Positions 50,076 through 59,150 of a DNA stretch of 64,000 nt are shown here, one piece after another. Source of the DNA: Sphingomonas psychrotolerans (GTDB lineage: Bacteria > Pseudomonadota > Alphaproteobacteria > Sphingomonadales > Sphingomonadaceae). Position 1 is the stretch's first letter. Every line of letters begins with the position of its first letter. Made by a program: the position numbers and the translations under genes. The notes below the pieces were generated by a model. That model saw only the letters and a program-made list of their open reading frames with translations. It ran no database searches and was not told the origin of the DNA. The stretch is from contig NZ_CP024923.1 in NCBI RefSeq assembly GCF_002796605.1, positions 1,798,001-1,862,000 on the forward strand, read 5' to 3'.

Positions 50076-51659
50076 ATGTCTTTCCACGTCGATGCCAGCG
50101 ACCACGGTGCCAGCCCTGGAAACACGCCAGAGCAAAATCTCGTGGCGCTAAAGGCAGCCGTTCTTGCCACATTACAAGGTGGCACCCTTCACATAAACGG
50201 ACATTATGTAGTTGCAACACCCGGGCTGCTCGATGCGATCGTCATCGACAAGCCGATGACCGTTCGGATCGATGGAAGCCTGACCGCCACCTCTGGCGCT
50301 TTTCAGCCCAATCCTCCCTATATCTTCAAAGTCGTGGCCGACGGCGTGACATTTCGTGGCGCCGGAGCTCTCATCGGCGATGGCGCCCTCAACGCAGCCA
50401 ATCTCGACGAAGGCGACCGCATCCAGATGCCGGGACTTCTCTACGTTGAGGGCGATAATTTCGAGTTGGAGGGCGTGACGATAGACTCGCCGCCGAAGGT
50501 CGGAATCTATCTGGTCGGCTGCCGACGCGCAAAGATCGCCGGCCGCTTCATTGGCGGGCCCACGACGCACACGAATGGCGAAACCGCCTATTTCGCCATT
50601 CGCATGTCCGGCGGCGGCGATCATCTTATCGAGTCCGATTTCGGCGAGGTGGGTAGCGACGCGCGGTACGTAACGGCCATCCGCACTTTCGGACTAGCGG
50701 CTGCGAATCGGGTCACGGTGCGTAATTGCTTCGCTAAAGTACACGAGAAGCTCTTCTATGGCCATGGCGAGGAGCATCTCGTTGCCGACAACGTGATTAT
50801 CGGTTCAAAGACTGACGCGATCCGCATCAACGGTTCGAGAAATCGCGTTCTTCGCAATCGAATTTGGGGAGGCAAGGGTGCAGTGTCGGTCTACGATGGC
50901 AGCGACAATGATATCAGTTTCAACAATGCTTATAACCTTACGCAAACCGGTATCTATTTTGGCGTATCGCAAGTGGGCGACCATAGCTCCTCAAAGGTAA
51001 TTGGTAACCATTTGGCGGGAACTGGGAATGCGCTAGCAGACGGTATTATGTTCGACCTGAAGGGTGCCGATTGCACCGACTTGGAAGTAAAGGACAATCT
51101 GGTGGTCAACTTTGCTTCGGCCGAGGTTGATCCGGTTGAGGAACAAGGCCTGATTCGCATCAGGGTCTTATCGCCTCATTCAGTGCGTCGTGCGGTGGTG
51201 GCCGGAAACAATCTGAGAAATACGCTTCAAAATGGAGTCGTACTCAATCGCGTAATCGATTCGCTGGTTTCCCACAACAAAGGCAGCGACATATCCAAAC
51301 ACTTCCTCGTTGAAGATGGCGGCGCCTATAACCGTTGGCTCGACAACTCTGCTACCGAAGTCGGCACGATCGGGGTTGCGGGACTGAGCAGCGCAAGTGA
51401 TACAGCGGGGAACATGTACACCCGGCAACCGCTCACCGCAGAGGCAAGTTGCGCCGCGGGGCTAACCACGCATGTGAACCACGGCGGCATCGCTCCAAAC
51501 GCTCAGATATTCTTGAAGGCGACGACTGCAGATTTCGCCACTCTGATGGCAGGCCGTTGGCCGCTCGCGACGGTGTCAGGCACTGGTTTCAATGTTGCGC
51601 TTGGAACTGGCACTCCCGCCGCGGGGGTCGAGCGTTTCGCGTACCATATCGTTCAATAG
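50076..51659 (+). CDS. right-handed beta-helix protein, no signal peptide
   Basis: 527 residues from the ATG at 50076 (GGAG upstream). Starts SFHVDASDHGASPGNTPEQNL, like phage-tail or secreted pectin-lyase-fold proteins, then many beta-helix coils (VTVRNCFAKVHEK, HLVADNVIIGSKTDAIRINGSRNRVLRNRIWGG) and a separate C-terminal beta region. No catalytic motif or signal peptide is evident. Base composition is clearly more AT-rich than its neighbours (for example 50860-51320), suggesting transfer. It ends in a strong hairpin. It could be a surface or phage-type tail protein acting on polysaccharide, but function is unproven. Confidence 0.65.
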   Translation: MSFHVDASDHGASPGNTPEQNLVALKAAVLATLQGGTLHINGHYVVATPGLLDAIVIDKPMTVRIDGSLTATSGAFQPNPPYIFKVVADGVTFRGAGALIGDGALNAANLDEGDRIQMPGLLYVEGDNFELEGVTIDSPPKVGIYLVGCRRAKIAGRFIGGPTTHTNGETAYFAIRMSGGGDHLIESDFGEVGSDARYVTAIRTFGLAAANRVTVRNCFAKVHEKLFYGHGEEHLVADNVIIGSKTDAIRINGSRNRVLRNRIWGGKGAVSVYDGSDNDISFNNAYNLTQTGIYFGVSQVGDHSSSKVIGNHLAGTGNALADGIMFDLKGADCTDLEVKDNLVVNFASAEVDPVEEQGLIRIRVLSPHSVRRAVVAGNNLRNTLQNGVVLNRVIDSLVSHNKGSDISKHFLVEDGGAYNRWLDNSATEVGTIGVAGLSSASDTAGNMYTRQPLTAEASCAAGLTTHVNHGGIAPNAQIFLKATTADFATLMAGRWPLATVSGTGFNVALGTGTPAAGVERFAYHIVQ

Positions 51660-51900: not shown

Positions 51901-52944
51901 TCACCCGCGCCCGGTCAGCCCGCGCTTCACTGCGCGCACTCCGCCGATCATCTGGCTGGCGACGAGGTCCGCCGCCTTCCCCAGCGGCAGCGGCCGGGTG
52001 CCGAGCGTGCGGTGGAGCAGCAGCGATCCCGAGCGCACGCTCGCCCGGCAGATGCGCCACCAGAGCTGCGAAATCTCGCGATCGACCGCGGCGAGATCCT
52101 CATGCGGGTTCGCGCCGCCGAACGCCGTGCGCAGCGCCGCGATGCCGTCGAACAGCCGGTTGAGTGTCTCGACATCGGATACCGGTTCGCGCGCCATGAC
52201 ATGGCGGACGAGCAGTCCGGCGATATCGGCCGCCGCATCGCCGAGCAAAGCCGCGTGCCGCTCGCGCAGCAACAGCTCGGCATGCGCCCGCATCGTCGCG
52301 TTGAACATCTGCGAAGCGCCGCCGGCATGGCAGCGATAGAGCATCAGCACTTGGTCGATCTGCGCGATCCGACCGAACGGCCGCAGCCGATGATAAAGGT
52401 CGAAATCCTCGACATAGCGCATCGCCGGGCGCTCGAACGGGTCGAGCCGGCGCGCGGCATCGGCGCGGAACATCACCGAAGACCAGGCGATCGGGTTCTG
52501 CACCAGCATCAGCCAGTCGATCAGCATCGGCGTCAGCGGCCGCGGCCAATGGCCGGGCAGCCGCTTGCCCTCCACCAGAAAGTCGGTCGCGCAGCTCACC
52601 AGCGCCACGTCGGGTTGCGCGTCCAGATACCCCACTTGCCGCGCGAACCGTTCGGGCAGACTGACATCGTCCTGATCGAGCCCCGCGACATAACGCCCGT
52701 GAACCTCGGCAAAGGCGCGGTTGCGCGCGACCACCGGCCCGCCATTGCTCGCCGAGCGGATCACCCGCACCCGCGGGTCGCCGAAGCGTTCGAGCACGCC
52801 GACGCTGTCGTCGGTCGAGCAATCGTCGACGGCGATCAATTCCCAATCCTGCAGCGTCTGCGCGCGCAGGCTCGCCAACGTCTCGGGCAGCAAAGCCGCG
52901 CCGTTGTATACTGCCATGATCACCGAGACGGCGGGCACGCTCAT
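51901..52944 (-). CDS. family 2 glycosyltransferase
   Basis: 347 residues from the ATG at 52944. The GT-A fold starts at once: PAVSVIMAVYNGAALLPETL, ELIAVDDCSTDDS (nucleotide-sugar Asp), ASNGGPVVARNRAF and the metal-binding GLDQDD (88-93). The C-terminal part is helical and carries no membrane segment. It adds a sugar from a nucleotide donor to a glycan or other acceptor. It overlaps the DegT-FAD fusion by ATGA, so the two are made together. Confidence 0.88.
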   Translation of the reverse strand: MSVPAVSVIMAVYNGAALLPETLASLRAQTLQDWELIAVDDCSTDDSVGVLERFGDPRVRVIRSASNGGPVVARNRAFAEVHGRYVAGLDQDDVSLPERFARQVGYLDAQPDVALVSCATDFLVEGKRLPGHWPRPLTPMLIDWLMLVQNPIAWSSVMFRADAARRLDPFERPAMRYVEDFDLYHRLRPFGRIAQIDQVLMLYRCHAGGASQMFNATMRAHAELLLRERHAALLGDAAADIAGLLVRHVMAREPVSDVETLNRLFDGIAALRTAFGGANPHEDLAAVDREISQLWWRICRASVRSGSLLLHRTLGTRPLPLGKAADLVASQMIGGVRAVKRGLTGRG

Positions 52945-55448
52945 GCGACCGCCTGCGCCTGCGCGTCGAACAATTGCTCGACGATCATCTGGCCGATGTC
53001 GTTCTGCCACAGCCACAGCCCGTTGGCCTTGCCGCTGAAGCTCGCTTCGCCGCCCAGCCGTCCGTCGGGGACATGCCCCGAAGCGAGCCCGATCCCGAAC
53101 ACGCCGGGCACCGGCCGTCCCTCCATATCGATCACCCGGCATTGCTGGTCGACCAGCCGTGGCCGGCCGGGCGCATCGGCGGCGAGCGTGATGCGATTCC
53201 CGTCTACGTCGAACAGGGGCAGCGCCCGCGGGCGATAGCCGAGCGCGCCGATCACTACGTCCGCGCCTTCGATCTCGGCGCGCACCGCCGCGTCCTCGAG
53301 TTCGCCGATCTGCCGCAGCGCCATCCGCGGATCGGGGGCACGCCCGCCGACGCCGAGCATCCGCAGCACCAGTTCGCGTGCCTCGAGCCGGAAGCCCGCC
53401 AGCCGATAGACGAAGCCGCTCACCGGGCAGATGTCCTGCGGGCCGAAATCGCGGAACCCGTCCGCCCGCGCCGCCTCGACCGAAGGATAAAAAGGCCGCA
53501 GCGGCCGGCGGTGGTAGAGCGCGAGCGCCCCGGCCCCCAGCGGCAATGCCGGCGCCGCCTTGAGGATCAATGCGGCCGCCGCCAGCGCGCTGGTCGACCC
53601 GCCGAGGATCGCGATCTGCGGCGCGGGCACCCCGGCGATCCGTGCGCGCAACGCGTCGAGCCCGCCGATCCGCAGGAACTCGTCCCCGCTCATCAGCCGC
53701 TCGCCGGCAAGATCGCCCAGCGCGGCGCCCGCCACCTTCTCGGCATAGATATTGGCGCGGGTCTGATAGCCCCCGGTGGCGATCACCAGCTTTTTGGCAC
53801 GCATCACCCGCACGTCCCCGGTCACCAGATTGCGCACCCGTGCTGCCCAGATTCCATCGACGCGCCGCGCCTCGACCACCTCGCTGCGCGTCGCCACGAT
53901 GCCCCCGCGCCCCGCGACGATCGCCGCCAGTTCGGCGCCGGTCGCCTCCAGAAACGGCGTCGTCCGCGCCAGCGGCACCCCGAGCTTGCCGGCATGCATC
54001 GCGACTTCCTGCCCCGACGAATGCCCCTCCAGCGCCGCGATGCCCGCATGGCCATTGCCCTTGACCGCAGTCAGGAACGTCTCGGCGGTGCTGTCCGAAG
54101 TGATCGCATAGGTCCCGATCTCGCCGCGGCCGAGCACTGCGTCGCGTTCGACCACAGCCAGCCCCGCCTCGGCGAGCCGCACCAGCGCGTCGCTCTTGCT
54201 CGCGGCGGTCAGCAGCGCCGTCCCCGCCGGCCCGCCGCCGACGATCAGCGCCGCGTGAACATGCCCGCCGCGCCGCTCGGCCTTTGGCAGCCCTTTGAGC
54301 CCCGATGCCGCGCACGCGTCGATCAGCGCCGCGCACACCCGTTCGACATCGCTCTCGGTCATCCCGTCGGTCACCGGCAGCGACAGCACCCGCGCACCCA
54401 AATCGTCGCACACCGGCAGCGGCTCGCTCACGCCGTGCGCGCGGAACCAGGGCTGCTCGCCCAGATGCGGACTGAAATAGCTGCCTGCGCCGATCCCCTG
54501 CCCGGCCAGCGTCTCGATGATCGCGCGCCTGTGCCCGGCAAAAGCGCGCGGCAGCAGCAGCGACTGGAATTGCAGCGCCGGCCGCGAACCGCGCAGTTCC
54601 TGAAACTCGAATCCCTTCTCCGCCGCGAACCCGCCCAAAGCCGCGCGATAGACTGCGTCGAGCCGCATCCGGTGCGCTGCGACGCCCTCGATCTCGTCGA
54701 GCTTCGCCCGCGCCACCAGCCCCAGCACTTCGGGCAATTTGGCGTTGATCCCCGGCCCCTCGGCCGATCGCCCGCCGGCAAAGCCGAAATTGCTCATCCG
54801 CCGCAGCTTTTCGATCAGCGCCGCGTCGCCCGAATGGATCAGCCCGCCTTCGGCCGTCGCGAACACCTTGGTCGCGTGCATCGAGTACACCACCGCGAAC
54901 GGCGCCCCCGCGCCGAACTGCCGCCCCTCGGCATCCAGCGCACCCAGCGAAGCCGCCGCATCGATCACCACGCCCACGCCCCGCGCGGCATAGTCCCGGT
55001 AGCGCGCCAGATCGATCCCCGCCCCGAAGGTCGCATAGGGCACCACCACCGCGATCCGATCGCCATATTTCTCGAACGCCCGCGCCTCGGCCTCGGCGCT
55101 CGCCGCCCAATCCTCAGGGTCGACGTCGCACAGCAGCGGAGTCAGCCCCGCCCATTCCGCCGCGTGCCCGGTCGCCGCAAAAGTGAAGCCCGGGATCAAT
55201 GCGAAACAGCCCTTCCCCGCGCGCGGTCCCGCGGCATCGCGGATCGCCAGCATCAGCCCTAAAGTCGCATTGCCCACCGCGAGACAGTCGCCCGCCCCGC
55301 CAAACAGCTGCGCCGTCGCCGCCGCCTCGAAGCCGCGCACCACCGGCCCGCCGTTCGAATAGACTCCGCGCGCCTCGATTTCCGCCAGCGCCTCGCCCAT
55401 CAGGCTCAGCTTCGGCGGACGCGGCGCGATCAACGGCAGCCGATCCAT
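52941..55448 (-). CDS. DegT/DnrJ-type aminotransferase fused to FAD/NAD(P) oxidoreductase
   Basis: 835 residues in one uninterrupted frame from the ATG at 55448 (GGGGAG 5 nt upstream). Residues about 1-385 are a DegT/DnrJ/EryC1 sugar aminotransferase-like domain, with PLP Asp in VVIDAAASLG (near 163) and PLP lysine in SMHATKVFATAEGG (Lys194). Residues about 398-835 are an FAD-dependent oxidoreductase: dinucleotide motif LIVGGGPAGTALL (404-409 core), a second GGSTSALAAAAL Rossmann motif near 610 and IGALGYRPRALP. It might make and then oxidise an amino sugar or similar compound for the coupled glycosyltransferase. I know of no characterised enzyme with this domain pair. Confidence 0.82.
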   Translation of the reverse strand: MDRLPLIAPRPPKLSLMGEALAEIEARGVYSNGGPVVRGFEAAATAQLFGGAGDCLAVGNATLGLMLAIRDAAGPRAGKGCFALIPGFTFAATGHAAEWAGLTPLLCDVDPEDWAASAEAEARAFEKYGDRIAVVVPYATFGAGIDLARYRDYAARGVGVVIDAAASLGALDAEGRQFGAGAPFAVVYSMHATKVFATAEGGLIHSGDAALIEKLRRMSNFGFAGGRSAEGPGINAKLPEVLGLVARAKLDEIEGVAAHRMRLDAVYRAALGGFAAEKGFEFQELRGSRPALQFQSLLLPRAFAGHRRAIIETLAGQGIGAGSYFSPHLGEQPWFRAHGVSEPLPVCDDLGARVLSLPVTDGMTESDVERVCAALIDACAASGLKGLPKAERRGGHVHAALIVGGGPAGTALLTAASKSDALVRLAEAGLAVVERDAVLGRGEIGTYAITSDSTAETFLTAVKGNGHAGIAALEGHSSGQEVAMHAGKLGVPLARTTPFLEATGAELAAIVAGRGGIVATRSEVVEARRVDGIWAARVRNLVTGDVRVMRAKKLVIATGGYQTRANIYAEKVAGAALGDLAGERLMSGDEFLRIGGLDALRARIAGVPAPQIAILGGSTSALAAAALILKAAPALPLGAGALALYHRRPLRPFYPSVEAARADGFRDFGPQDICPVSGFVYRLAGFRLEARELVLRMLGVGGRAPDPRMALRQIGELEDAAVRAEIEGADVVIGALGYRPRALPLFDVDGNRITLAADAPGRPRLVDQQCRVIDMEGRPVPGVFGIGLASGHVPDGRLGGEASFSGKANGLWLWQNDIGQMIVEQLFDAQAQAVA

Positions 55449-55583
55449 AGACACTCCCCAGTTCCATGCTCGCCGGACGCACCGGCGCGATTGCGCGCGA
55501 TCCTAGCCGCGCCGAACCTTCCATTTCGTAAAGCTATCGCGCCCCGCATGGACGCGGCCCCGCGCGCGGGCTAGCCCGGTGCC

Positions 55584-56237: not shown

Positions 56238-57479
56238 ATGCACGGTCCGCTCAGCTTTTCCCAACTCAGGCAGCAGACCGGGATGAGCGTGGAGGAACTG
56301 GCCGGAGAGCTCGGCTATTCCGCCAGCACCGTATATCGCTGGGAACGCGGTGAGATCGAGCCGAAGGCGCCGATCTATCGAACGCTGGAGATGATCGCCA
56401 AACTGACCCCCGCCGCATCCAACGACGCAGCCTTTCGTTTCATCGATCTGTTCGCGGGGATCGGTGGCCTCAGGATCGGCTTCCAGGCGATCGGCGGGCA
56501 CTGCGTGTTCACTTCGGAATGGGACGCCAAGGCGCAGGAGACCTATTCGCGCAATTTCCGCGACAATCATCCGCTCGCCGGGGATATCCGCCCCTTCGCC
56601 GAGGATCCGCAGCGCGTTCCGGAGCACGACGTGCTGCTCGGCGGCTTTCCGTGCCAGCCCTTCTCGATCGCCGGGGTCTCCAAGAAGAATGCGCTAGGCC
56701 GCCCGCACGGCTTTCTCTGCGACACGCAGGGCACCTTGTTCTTCGATACCGCGCAGATCATCGCGCACCACCGCCCCGCCGCCTTCGTGCTCGAAAACGT
56801 CAAGAATCTCGAGCGGCACGACAAGGGCCGTACCTTCGCGACGATCATCAACGTGCTCGAGAACGAGCTCGGCTATCACGTCCAGACGCGCGTGATCAGC
56901 TCCGAGCATTGGGTGCCTCAGAAGCGCGAGCGGATCTTCATCGTCGGCTTCCGCGAAAAGACCGCATTCAATCTCAAGGCACTCGAACTCCCGGGCGACG
57001 GCCCGAAGCTCGGCAGCATCTTGCAGCCGCACGACGAGGTCGATCCCAAATACACCCTCACCCCGCGCCTCTGGGACTATCTCCAGGCGTATAAGGCGAA
57101 GCACGCGTCGAAGGGCAATGGCTTTGGTTACAGTCTGTTCGGCCCGGGCGACGTCGCCCGCACCCTTTCCGCCCGTTATTACAAGGACGGCTCGGAGATC
57201 CTGATCGCGCAGCCCGGCAAGCGTCCGCGCCGCCTCACCCCGCTCGAATGCGCCCGGCTGATGGGCTTCGACCGCGGCGAGCGCCGCTGGCACATCCCGG
57301 TGTCGGATACGCAGGCATATCGGCAGTTCGGCAATGCCGTGGTCGTGCCGGTGGTGGAATTCCTCGCCCAGGCGATGAAGCCCCATCTGGCAACCGCGCT
57401 GGCGCGGCCGGACGGCCGGCATACACCCCCCGTCACCGTCTCGCGACCCGATCGGGAGCCGGCGTTCGCCCATGGCTGA
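56238..57479 (+). CDS. DNA cytosine-5 methyltransferase with N-terminal HTH (Dcm/EcoRII type)
   Basis: 413 residues from the ATG at 56238 (AGAGG 6 nt upstream). Residues about 7-60 form an Xre-like helix-turn-helix (MSVEELAGELGYSASTVYRWERG). The methylase follows with motif I FIDLFAGIGGLRIGF, motif IV GGFPCQPFS (Cys139), VI LENVKNL, VIII QKRERIFIVGF and X QFGNAVVVPV. In related enzymes (M.EcoRII, M.SsoII) the N-terminal domain represses the methylase gene. GTTC-N11-GAAC at 56179-56197 is a possible site. Overlaps vsr by 8 bp. Likely target CCWGG or a relative. Confidence 0.92.
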   Translation: MHGPLSFSQLRQQTGMSVEELAGELGYSASTVYRWERGEIEPKAPIYRTLEMIAKLTPAASNDAAFRFIDLFAGIGGLRIGFQAIGGHCVFTSEWDAKAQETYSRNFRDNHPLAGDIRPFAEDPQRVPEHDVLLGGFPCQPFSIAGVSKKNALGRPHGFLCDTQGTLFFDTAQIIAHHRPAAFVLENVKNLERHDKGRTFATIINVLENELGYHVQTRVISSEHWVPQKRERIFIVGFREKTAFNLKALELPGDGPKLGSILQPHDEVDPKYTLTPRLWDYLQAYKAKHASKGNGFGYSLFGPGDVARTLSARYYKDGSEILIAQPGKRPRRLTPLECARLMGFDRGERRWHIPVSDTQAYRQFGNAVVVPVVEFLAQAMKPHLATALARPDGRHTPPVTVSRPDREPAFAHG

Positions 57480-57924
57480 CGTGGTCTCGGCTGCGGTCCG
57501 CAGCCGGATGATGGCGGGCATCAAGGGCAAGAACACCAATCCGGAGCTGTTGCTTCGCAAGGGGCTCCATGCGCGCGGCTTCCGGTTCCGGCTGCACGAC
57601 AAATCGCTTCCGGGAACTCCGGACGTGGTTCTGCCGCGCCACCGCGCCGTCCTCTTCGCGCATGGCTGCTTCTGGCACGGGCATGACTGCCATTTGTTCA
57701 AATGGCCCAAGACGCGCGAGGAGTTCTGGCGCGCCAAGATCGCGCGCAACCAGGAACTCGATGCGAAAGCCGAGGCGACGCTGGCGAAGACCGACTGGCG
57801 CTATGCGGTGATCTGGGAGTGTGCCTTGAAAGGCCGCACGCGATTGCCGATCGAAGACGTGTTGGCATCCTGCGCGGAATGGATCAGATCGGAGGTCCCG
57901 CGGCTCGAAATCAGGGGAAGTTGA
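57472..57924 (+). CDS. vsr: very short patch repair endonuclease Vsr
   Basis: 150 residues. It nicks beside T:G mismatches left by deamination of 5-methylcytosine. The key residues line up with E. coli Vsr numbering: Asp51 (PGTPDVVLP), His64 and His69 (FAHGCFWHGHDC), and zinc ligands Cys66, His71, Cys73 and Cys117 (WECALKG). It overlaps the methylase by 8 bp and the nuclease by 1 bp (TGATG), so the three form one operon. Confidence 0.95.
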   Translation: MADVVSAAVRSRMMAGIKGKNTNPELLLRKGLHARGFRFRLHDKSLPGTPDVVLPRHRAVLFAHGCFWHGHDCHLFKWPKTREEFWRAKIARNQELDAKAEATLAKTDWRYAVIWECALKGRTRLPIEDVLASCAEWIRSEVPRLEIRGS

Positions 57925-59150
57925 TGCGGCGTGGATTTCTTTCGGATCTGTTCGCAGGAGTCGTCGCCAAGCGACTGACCCTTGTCGAAACGATCACCGA
58001 GAAATCGAACCAGCACGAATTTCAGGGTACGCTGCCGCTGCGGCAATTGCTCGGCGTCGAGGATCGCCGAGGCGTGGCGACGCGCTTCATCTGGCTCTCC
58101 GGCGAGCAGGAGGCGCTGACCGAAGACGGTTTCATGAGTTGGTCCAACGTGCGGAAAGGCAAGCCGCGGGCGCCGGAATTCCACCTTTATTACTCGACCA
58201 ACGCGGTCACCGAGATGATGCGGGCGGACGACATGCTGTTCATCGCGCTCGCACGCGACGGCTCGCTGCTCGCCGTCGTCACGCCAGCGGAAAGCACAAT
58301 CCAGAACCAGCTCCTCTGGTTGTTCGGTTTGCACGACCAGCCGATGTTCGGCTTTACCTTCCAGCCGATCGAAGGATCGAGCGACGCCGAGCTGGACTAC
58401 ATCGCACGCTATATTCTCAGCGAACTCGGCATCGCGCCGGGTGAGCCCGACGCCAGAGAGCTCGATACGCTCATCGAACCTTTCGGGCTCACCATGCCGC
58501 CGACCCGCACCTTCTCGGAACTCGCGCGATCGTCGCTGCCCCACCTCTCTGCGCCCGACGATCCGGATCGGGTGCTGGTCGAATGGATGGATCGCGAGGA
58601 GCAATTGTTCCGTCGCCTCGAACGCCGGATCGTGGCCGAGCGCATCGCCGCGGGCTTCATGGCGCCGGACGGCGCGGATGTGGACGGATTCCTGTCCTTC
58701 TCGCTCAGTGTGCAGAACCGCCGCAAGTCCCGCGCCGGGCAAGCGCTCGAGAACCATCTCGAGGCGATATTCATCGCGCATGGCGTCGAGCATCGCCGTG
58801 GCGCCGCGACCGAGAACCGCAACAAGCCCGATTTTCTGTTCCCCGGGCCGATGCAGTATCGCGATCCGGCCTTCCCCGCCTCGCGGCTGACCATGCTCGG
58901 CGCCAAATCGACCGCCAAGGACCGCTGGCGGCAGATCCTCTCCGAAGCCGACCGCATTCCCGAAAAGCATCTGCTCACGCTCGAACCGGGCATTTCCGAA
59001 AACCAGACGCGCGAGATGCAGGCTCGGCATCTTCAGCTGGTCCTGCCTTCACGGCTCCACGTCACCTATCGTCCGGCGCAGCAAGGCTGGCTGATGAACC
59101 TTGAGGCGTTCCTGTCGCTGGTCAAGGAGCGGCAGACCGGCCACGGCTAA
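57924..59150 (+). CDS. EcoRII-type restriction endonuclease
   Basis: 408 residues from the ATG at 57924. The N-terminal part (about 1-170: FIWLSGEQEALTEDGFMSW, PEFHLYYSTNAVTEMMRADD) matches the EcoRII effector-binding domain. The C-terminal part has the EcoRII catalytic region, KPDFLFPGPMQYRDPAF (near 301) and LGAKSTAKDRWRQIL (near 325), then EPGISENQTREM. Such type IIE enzymes cut CCWGG-like sites and need two copies for activity. Both domains appear intact. Exact specificity cannot be read from the sequence. Confidence 0.9.
   Translation: MRRGFLSDLFAGVVAKRLTLVETITEKSNQHEFQGTLPLRQLLGVEDRRGVATRFIWLSGEQEALTEDGFMSWSNVRKGKPRAPEFHLYYSTNAVTEMMRADDMLFIALARDGSLLAVVTPAESTIQNQLLWLFGLHDQPMFGFTFQPIEGSSDAELDYIARYILSELGIAPGEPDARELDTLIEPFGLTMPPTRTFSELARSSLPHLSAPDDPDRVLVEWMDREEQLFRRLERRIVAERIAAGFMAPDGADVDGFLSFSLSVQNRRKSRAGQALENHLEAIFIAHGVEHRRGAATENRNKPDFLFPGPMQYRDPAFPASRLTMLGAKSTAKDRWRQILSEADRIPEKHLLTLEPGISENQTREMQARHLQLVLPSRLHVTYRPAQQGWLMNLEAFLSLVKERQTGHG

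Follow-up and report, generated by a model that had tools for sequence, protein, structure and literature searches.

In the current study, we characterized a gene of Sphingomonas psychrotolerans whose single product joins an aminotransferase of the DegT/DnrJ/EryC1 family (AT) to a two-domain flavoprotein (OX). It lies on the minus strand of a 64,000-nt stretch of contig NZ_CP024923.1 (assembly GCF_002796605.1, positions 1,798,001 to 1,862,000), referred to here as the window, and is followed by a gene for a GT2 glycosyltransferase (GT2). The fusion is real and conserved, and the enzyme is apparently unstudied. Judging from sequence and predicted structure, we consider the chances evenly divided for a three-step pathway in which AT produces an amino sugar linked to a nucleotide, OX adds oxygen to the amine just formed and GT2 transfers the product.

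A search with the fused protein returned 814 homologues at E ≤ 1e-3. Among the best 120 of these 814, which include the window's own protein, 118 are 804-853 aa long with 97-100% query coverage, and P0053 and P0117 are shorter. At the level of genomes, 48 of the 50 loci that contain both halves (L003-L052) have one AT-OX frame; the frame of L051 is broken inside OX, L052 has separate AT and OX genes, and a further locus outside the 50 (L053) matched the aminotransferase alone. Because these loci were found with fused-protein patterns, close and already fused relatives are favoured among them. Pooling every locus and listed protein gave 179 full-length AT-OX frames, corresponding to 172 distinct sequences. 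When the window gene is compared with seven relatives, the ratio of non-synonymous to synonymous substitution rates (dN/dS) ranges from 0.09-0.22 in AT to 0.12-0.24 in OX, and both halves are under purifying selection. An assembly error is ruled out, since 48 of 50 loci carry the fusion as one frame. The earlier note on this DNA had described a single uninterrupted frame, which we confirmed at the coordinates given there and placed on the minus strand, a detail it had not given. It had also held that close homologues encoded as two genes would betray an assembly error. Such homologues do exist: in Sphingomonas formosensis, AT, OX and GT2 are three genes in that order with 4-nt overlaps, but this is a natural split form and no sign of an assembly error.

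The Pfam profile PF01041 (DegT) matches residues 19-375 of the protein (E 2.9e-56; 191.7 bits vs. a cut-off of 19.8). Of the residues expected to bind pyridoxal phosphate (PLP), Asp163 is present in all 172 fused sequences and Lys194 in 171, the remaining one having Asn, while the flavin adenine dinucleotide (FAD) and NADP motifs of OX are kept in 172 of 172. Loss of an active site is thereby ruled out. These results bear out the earlier description of a sugar-aminotransferase-like domain with its PLP Asp and Lys194, and of two intact sites. The top curated match of AT is DesI and its top solved-structure match is 3ju7. AT scores below the NCBIfam equivalog cut-offs for DesI (165.7 vs. 650 bits), PseC (120.7 vs. 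423.5) and ArnB (NF008658; 84.7 vs. 631). An amino-sugar role for AT is likely, and its substrate would be a nucleotide sugar, possibly dTDP-4-keto-6-deoxyglucose (dTDP, deoxythymidine diphosphate).

OX passes no Pfam cut-off; it matches flavoprotein families only below their thresholds, and NCBIfam is likewise undecided. The two Rossmann motifs noticed previously are present as GGGPAG (FAD; residues 404-409) and GGSTSA (NADP; residues 616-621). The model of the full-length protein has a predicted local distance difference test score (pLDDT) of 83.1 and a predicted template modelling score (pTM) of 0.67. OX is predicted to adopt an N-hydroxylase-type fold comprising an FAD and an NADP domain. 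The structure prediction and the comparison of profiles together place OX closest, by a modest margin, to the flavin-dependent N-hydroxylating monooxygenases (NMO) SidA, PvdA and KtzI, so that what had been called simply an oxidoreductase appears to be a relative of amine N-oxygenases. For the profile comparison, sets were picked by motif and length, keeping 30 of 30 NMO, 12 of 15 flavin-containing monooxygenase (FMO) and 17 of 20 thioredoxin reductase (TrxR) sequences. No match to the NMO family PF13434 was found in 76 genomes of the class, and 249 genomes of the phylum, 27 of them with a match, were therefore used as the source. The wide OX profile aligned with NMO in 340 columns over 395 positions and with FMO in 202 columns within the first 262. 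N-hydroxylases carry the motif D(x3)(L/F)ATGY; the pattern D(3-4)A.GY occurs in 172 of 172 fused OX sequences (DVVIGALGY at residues 730-738 of the window protein), ending as ALGY in 159 and ATGY in 5. Searching the Protein Data Bank (PDB) with the A1 profile gave weak, mostly short matches, the best being 5uth (3.5e-4). A disulfide reductase of the thioredoxin reductase kind was considered and ruled out: no CxxC occurs in P0001, and any CxxC occurs in only 1 of 172 fused sequences. Cys674 and Cys770 of OX are invariant, and the Asp672-x-Cys674 motif is present in all 172 fused proteins and in 8 of 8 rows of the remote alignment A4.

The partnership of the two halves extends beyond the fusion itself. 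Among 58 OX loci, 12 carry the fusion and 46 do not. In 41 of these 46, a DegT gene lies on the same strand as OX and within about 1.5 kb of it (stretches of up to 4.3 kb were examined), with AT first in 21 and OX first in 20. The loci are not independent, because most of those without the fusion come from two bacterial families (f194 and f66). The partner DegT proteins share 49-54% identity with the window AT in some loci and 28-30% in others. A reversed fusion, OX-AT, is encoded on a plasmid of Granulicella tundricola (41% and 51% identity to the window OX and AT, respectively) and in one alphaproteobacterial assembly (L056/L073). A tree was built from 75 OX sequences, 73 of them different. 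In it, the AT-OX proteins sit in the sphingomonad part and need four state changes, some stand-alone forms are nested inside the AT-OX part, and the reversed fusions fall on another branch. Read most simply, and within the limits set by long branches, eight open forks and stand-alone entries that are possibly cut off, the tree suggests that fusion took place at least twice and was followed by some splits. The proposal that the protein is a bifunctional enzyme coupled to a GT2 is well supported by conservation, by the intact sites, by the "Rosetta-stone" pattern of halves fused both ways or encoded by adjacent genes, and by the GT2 downstream. Separately, the DegT proteins beside OX in L075 (7958-9388) and L076 (7677-9116) are 476-479 aa long with an extra N-terminal part, which in L075 matches the CBS profile PF00571 below its cut-off; both loci have FkbM methyltransferase genes a few kb from OX.

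A homologue of the window's GT2 lies downstream in 46 of the 48 fused named loci (phmmer E ≤ 1e-15, on the same strand and no more than 2.5 kb away), the exceptions being L023 and L048. It was also seen in 11 of 17 loci of the L054-L071 series, where flanks extend only about 1.5 kb, and in 3 of 15 loci of a hand-picked mixed set, all three sphingomonads. None was found downstream in the non-sphingomonad lineages examined, and a different GT2-family gene adjoins the reversed fusion of Granulicella. This GT2 is a sphingomonad feature, and the wider neighbourhood differs between clades. A glycan context is also seen in L084, where a GT2 gene, a WbqC gene and a gene whose predicted sequence looks like that of a flippase lie near the AT/OX pair, and in L075 and L076 with their FkbM genes. 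Following AT/OX in L073 (7408-8334, minus strand) is a gene without a Pfam family, and in L074 (10898-12316, plus strand) its 24% relative, with an F5/8 type C domain; they hold the place of GT2 in sphingomonads, and perhaps represent an undescribed glycosyltransferase.

Given the observed family and catalytic residues, AT with PLP would convert the keto group of a nucleotide-activated sugar to an amine. OX, as an N-hydroxylase-like monooxygenase binding FAD and NADPH, would then oxygenate this amine to give a hydroxylamino sugar nucleotide, or one further oxidized to the nitroso or oxime form, which GT2 may transfer to a surface glycan. We infer the N-oxygenation step from the fold, the profile relationship and the steady partnership with amine-making PLP enzymes. 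More doubtful, though worth stating, is the broader proposal that one polypeptide both makes and N-oxygenates the amine of a sugar nucleotide, that the product is built into the surface polysaccharide of Sphingomonas and, via the same gene pair, of other bacteria, and that OX is the sugar branch of a wider N-oxygenase clan travelling with PLP enzymes.

Several observations weigh against the three-step pathway proposed here. At E ≤ 1, PF13434 gives no match to the window OX; 22 of 52 OX members match it weakly (best E 0.0038). The remote relatives in L091 and L092 pass its cut-off, that in L093 fails, and the wide OX profile set contains such passing relatives. The narrow profile ties FMO (1.7e-12) and NMO (5.1e-12), and the control pairs NMO-FMO (5.4e-18) and FMO-TrxR (2.3e-16) are as close as OX and NMO. 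Foldseek alignments have root-mean-square deviations of 8-9 and template modelling scores of about 0.5, and VIA places small FMOs and YpdA above NMOs. The threonine of ATGY, a motif found in 25 of 30 PF13434 and 4 of 12 FMO sequences, is mostly leucine in OX. We know of no counterpart in N-hydroxylases to the invariant D672/C674 motif. Five of the 46 unfused OX loci show no DegT gene (L071, at a contig edge, and L080, L083, L095 and L112); the 16-20 kb around the latter four gave no DegT match, in a search that covered DegT alone and leaves room for other PLP enzymes. The OX relatives of Priestia and Rahnella had no NMO match in the PDB by phmmer. Finally, an RmlB-type match lies about 3 Mb away in the same genome and is weak evidence for a sugar-nucleotide substrate, because RmlB-type matches occur in 14 of 14 control genomes.

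Other roles for OX deserve consideration. It might act before AT, dehydrogenating a sugar hydroxyl and so providing the ketone or aldehyde for amination by AT. Adjacent oxidoreductase/aminotransferase pairs with this oxidation-first logic are known (WbpB/WbpE and Neo11/Neo18), and gene order gives no hint, because both orders occur. However, the oxidoreductases of those pairs have other folds, whereas OX has an FAD-plus-NADP two-domain fold nearest to NMO and FMO, and its remote relatives pair with PLP enzymes other than DegT, namely a Cys/Met-type enzyme and nucleotidyltransferase-aminotransferase fusions (best NCBIfam match of the latter, a decarboxylase). We regard this order of reactions as unlikely. 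A flavoprotein monooxygenase of class B but of another kind, oxygenating carbon or sulfur or carrying out a Baeyer-Villiger reaction, whether on that sugar or on a neighbouring group, or acting as a plain NADPH oxidase, seems to us improbable as well. FMOs and Baeyer-Villiger enzymes have the fingerprint FxGxxxHxxx(Y/F) or (W/P), and each fingerprint is found in 0 of 172 fused OX sequences, compared with 9 of 12 FMO controls that carry one; the short, N-terminal alignment of the wide profile with FMO also argues against it.

That OX no longer oxidizes a sugar and serves as a structural or regulatory partner of AT is the least credible of these roles, and we think it very improbable. AT alone would then yield an ordinary amino sugar, and the linker between the halves, being of low confidence in the model, is perhaps flexible. 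Against this stand the retention of both dinucleotide motifs by 172 of 172 sequences, the dN/dS of OX over the seven pairs (0.12-0.24) and the existence of full-length stand-alone OX proteins.

The distribution of OX is patchy. At E ≤ 1e-40, OX was found in 13 of the 298 genomes sampled from the organism's own family and in 6 of 385 from the class. At E ≤ 1e-25, it was found in 12 of 398 from the phylum, in 21 of 119 from family f194 and in 18 of 76 from the order of G066. One of 5 genomes from the order of G246 also has it; the samples overlap in some genomes, and the family, class and phylum counts each include the window's own genome. A second homologue search gave 466 proteins at E ≤ 1e-3, and OX also occurs as a full-length stand-alone protein. 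Homologues are named hypothetical protein or oxidoreductase in the databases, and a stand-alone OX such as P0207 bears the name DegT aminotransferase. The earlier note knew of no described enzyme with this domain order. A text search of a partial library for the AT-OX fusion by name found no paper, and among the matches listed for FrbG, FR-900098, N-hydroxylases, CalE10 and N-oxygenated sugars no title is on it. Each half nevertheless belongs to a known kind of protein, and many fusions are already in databases under aminotransferase names. Should the proposed pathway prove true, the surface glycans of sphingomonads would contain a sugar with a chemically reactive N-O group, a type known, to our knowledge, only from antibiotics. 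The fusion, its counterpart in reverse order and the swapped PLP partners also make a direct, testable prediction for several hundred flavoproteins (the 814 and 466 homologues).

Table 1. Features of the AT-OX locus and its surroundings (window positions).
Feature	Position	Strand	Remarks
AT-OX fusion gene	52941..55448	-	835 aa + stop; ATG at 55448, stop codon 52941-52943; single open frame
DegT/DnrJ/EryC1 aminotransferase domain (AT)	54303..55448	-	residues ~1-382; PLP Asp163, Lys194; PF01041 match and conservation
Linker	54261..54302	-	residues ~383-396; low confidence in model, 384-390 with pLDDT <50
Flavoprotein domain (OX)	52944..54260	-	residues ~397-835; motifs and predicted fold
GT2 glycosyltransferase	51901..52944	-	347 aa; PF00535, E 8.2e-33
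Right-handed beta-helix protein (NosD/Beta_helix)	50076-51659	+	faces GT2
Restriction-modification island	56283-59150	+	PF00145, PF03852, PF09019

Upstream of the fusion's ATG are an in-frame GTG (at 55454, 6 nt away) and the sequence GGGGAG, which ends 5 nt before the ATG. The stop codon of the fusion and the ATG of GT2 share the overlap ATGA; of the translational coupling proposed earlier, the overlap is thus observed, and the coupling itself may be presumed from it. The nearby restriction-modification island comprises a C5 cytosine methylase, a Vsr nicking endonuclease and an EcoRII-C restriction enzyme, and among the compared loci it is common to L003 and L005 only. The beta-helix gene has a third-position guanine-plus-cytosine content below that of its neighbours.

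With respect to known systems, AT shares the DegT family and catalytic residues with DesI, PseC, ArnB and 3ju7, and the window protein differs from DesI, PseC and ArnB in falling under their equivalog cut-offs and in its fused flavoprotein. OX resembles the NMOs SidA, IucD, PvdA and KtzI (PF13434) in predicted fold, FAD and NADP motifs, profile alignment along most of OX and the D..A.GY pattern. It differs in failing PF13434, in having ALGY for ATGY and an invariant D-x-C, and in having an aminotransferase as partner in place of a siderophore pathway. In calicheamicin biosynthesis, the aminotransferase CalS13 acts first and CalE10 then N-oxidizes the amine of the sugar; unlike the fusion, these are two separate proteins, CalE10 is a P450, and the product is an antibiotic rather than a surface glycan. 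Remote OX relatives adjoin a Cys/Met-type PLP enzyme in a Shinella nonribosomal peptide/polyketide synthase cluster and nucleotidyltransferase-aminotransferase fusions on plasmids of Rahnella and Priestia. Plasmid pBM700 of Priestia megaterium (L092, 4864-12968) encodes two ATP-grasp proteins, an AAC(3)-type acetyltransferase, a nucleotidyltransferase-aminotransferase fusion, an extra DXR and an OX relative, which aligns with the window OX at full length (112 bits, 22% identity across 449 columns, pairwise E 7e-31). This gene set presumably resembles that for FR-900098 and has the look of a phosphonohydroxamate-type pathway. No solved NMO matched the Priestia protein, so that its kinship to the FR-900098 enzyme FrbG is conjectural; FrbG does not appear by name in the VIA list either, an absence that excludes nothing. 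According to a review, FrbG is an NMO whose substrate amine is bound to a nucleotide: it hydroxylates the aminopropylphosphonate unit within a cytidine monophosphate (CMP) conjugate, and its NADPH domain helps to recognize CMP (PMC7347517). The role proposed for OX is similar in this respect, although the substrate of FrbG is a phosphonate and that proposed for OX a sugar.
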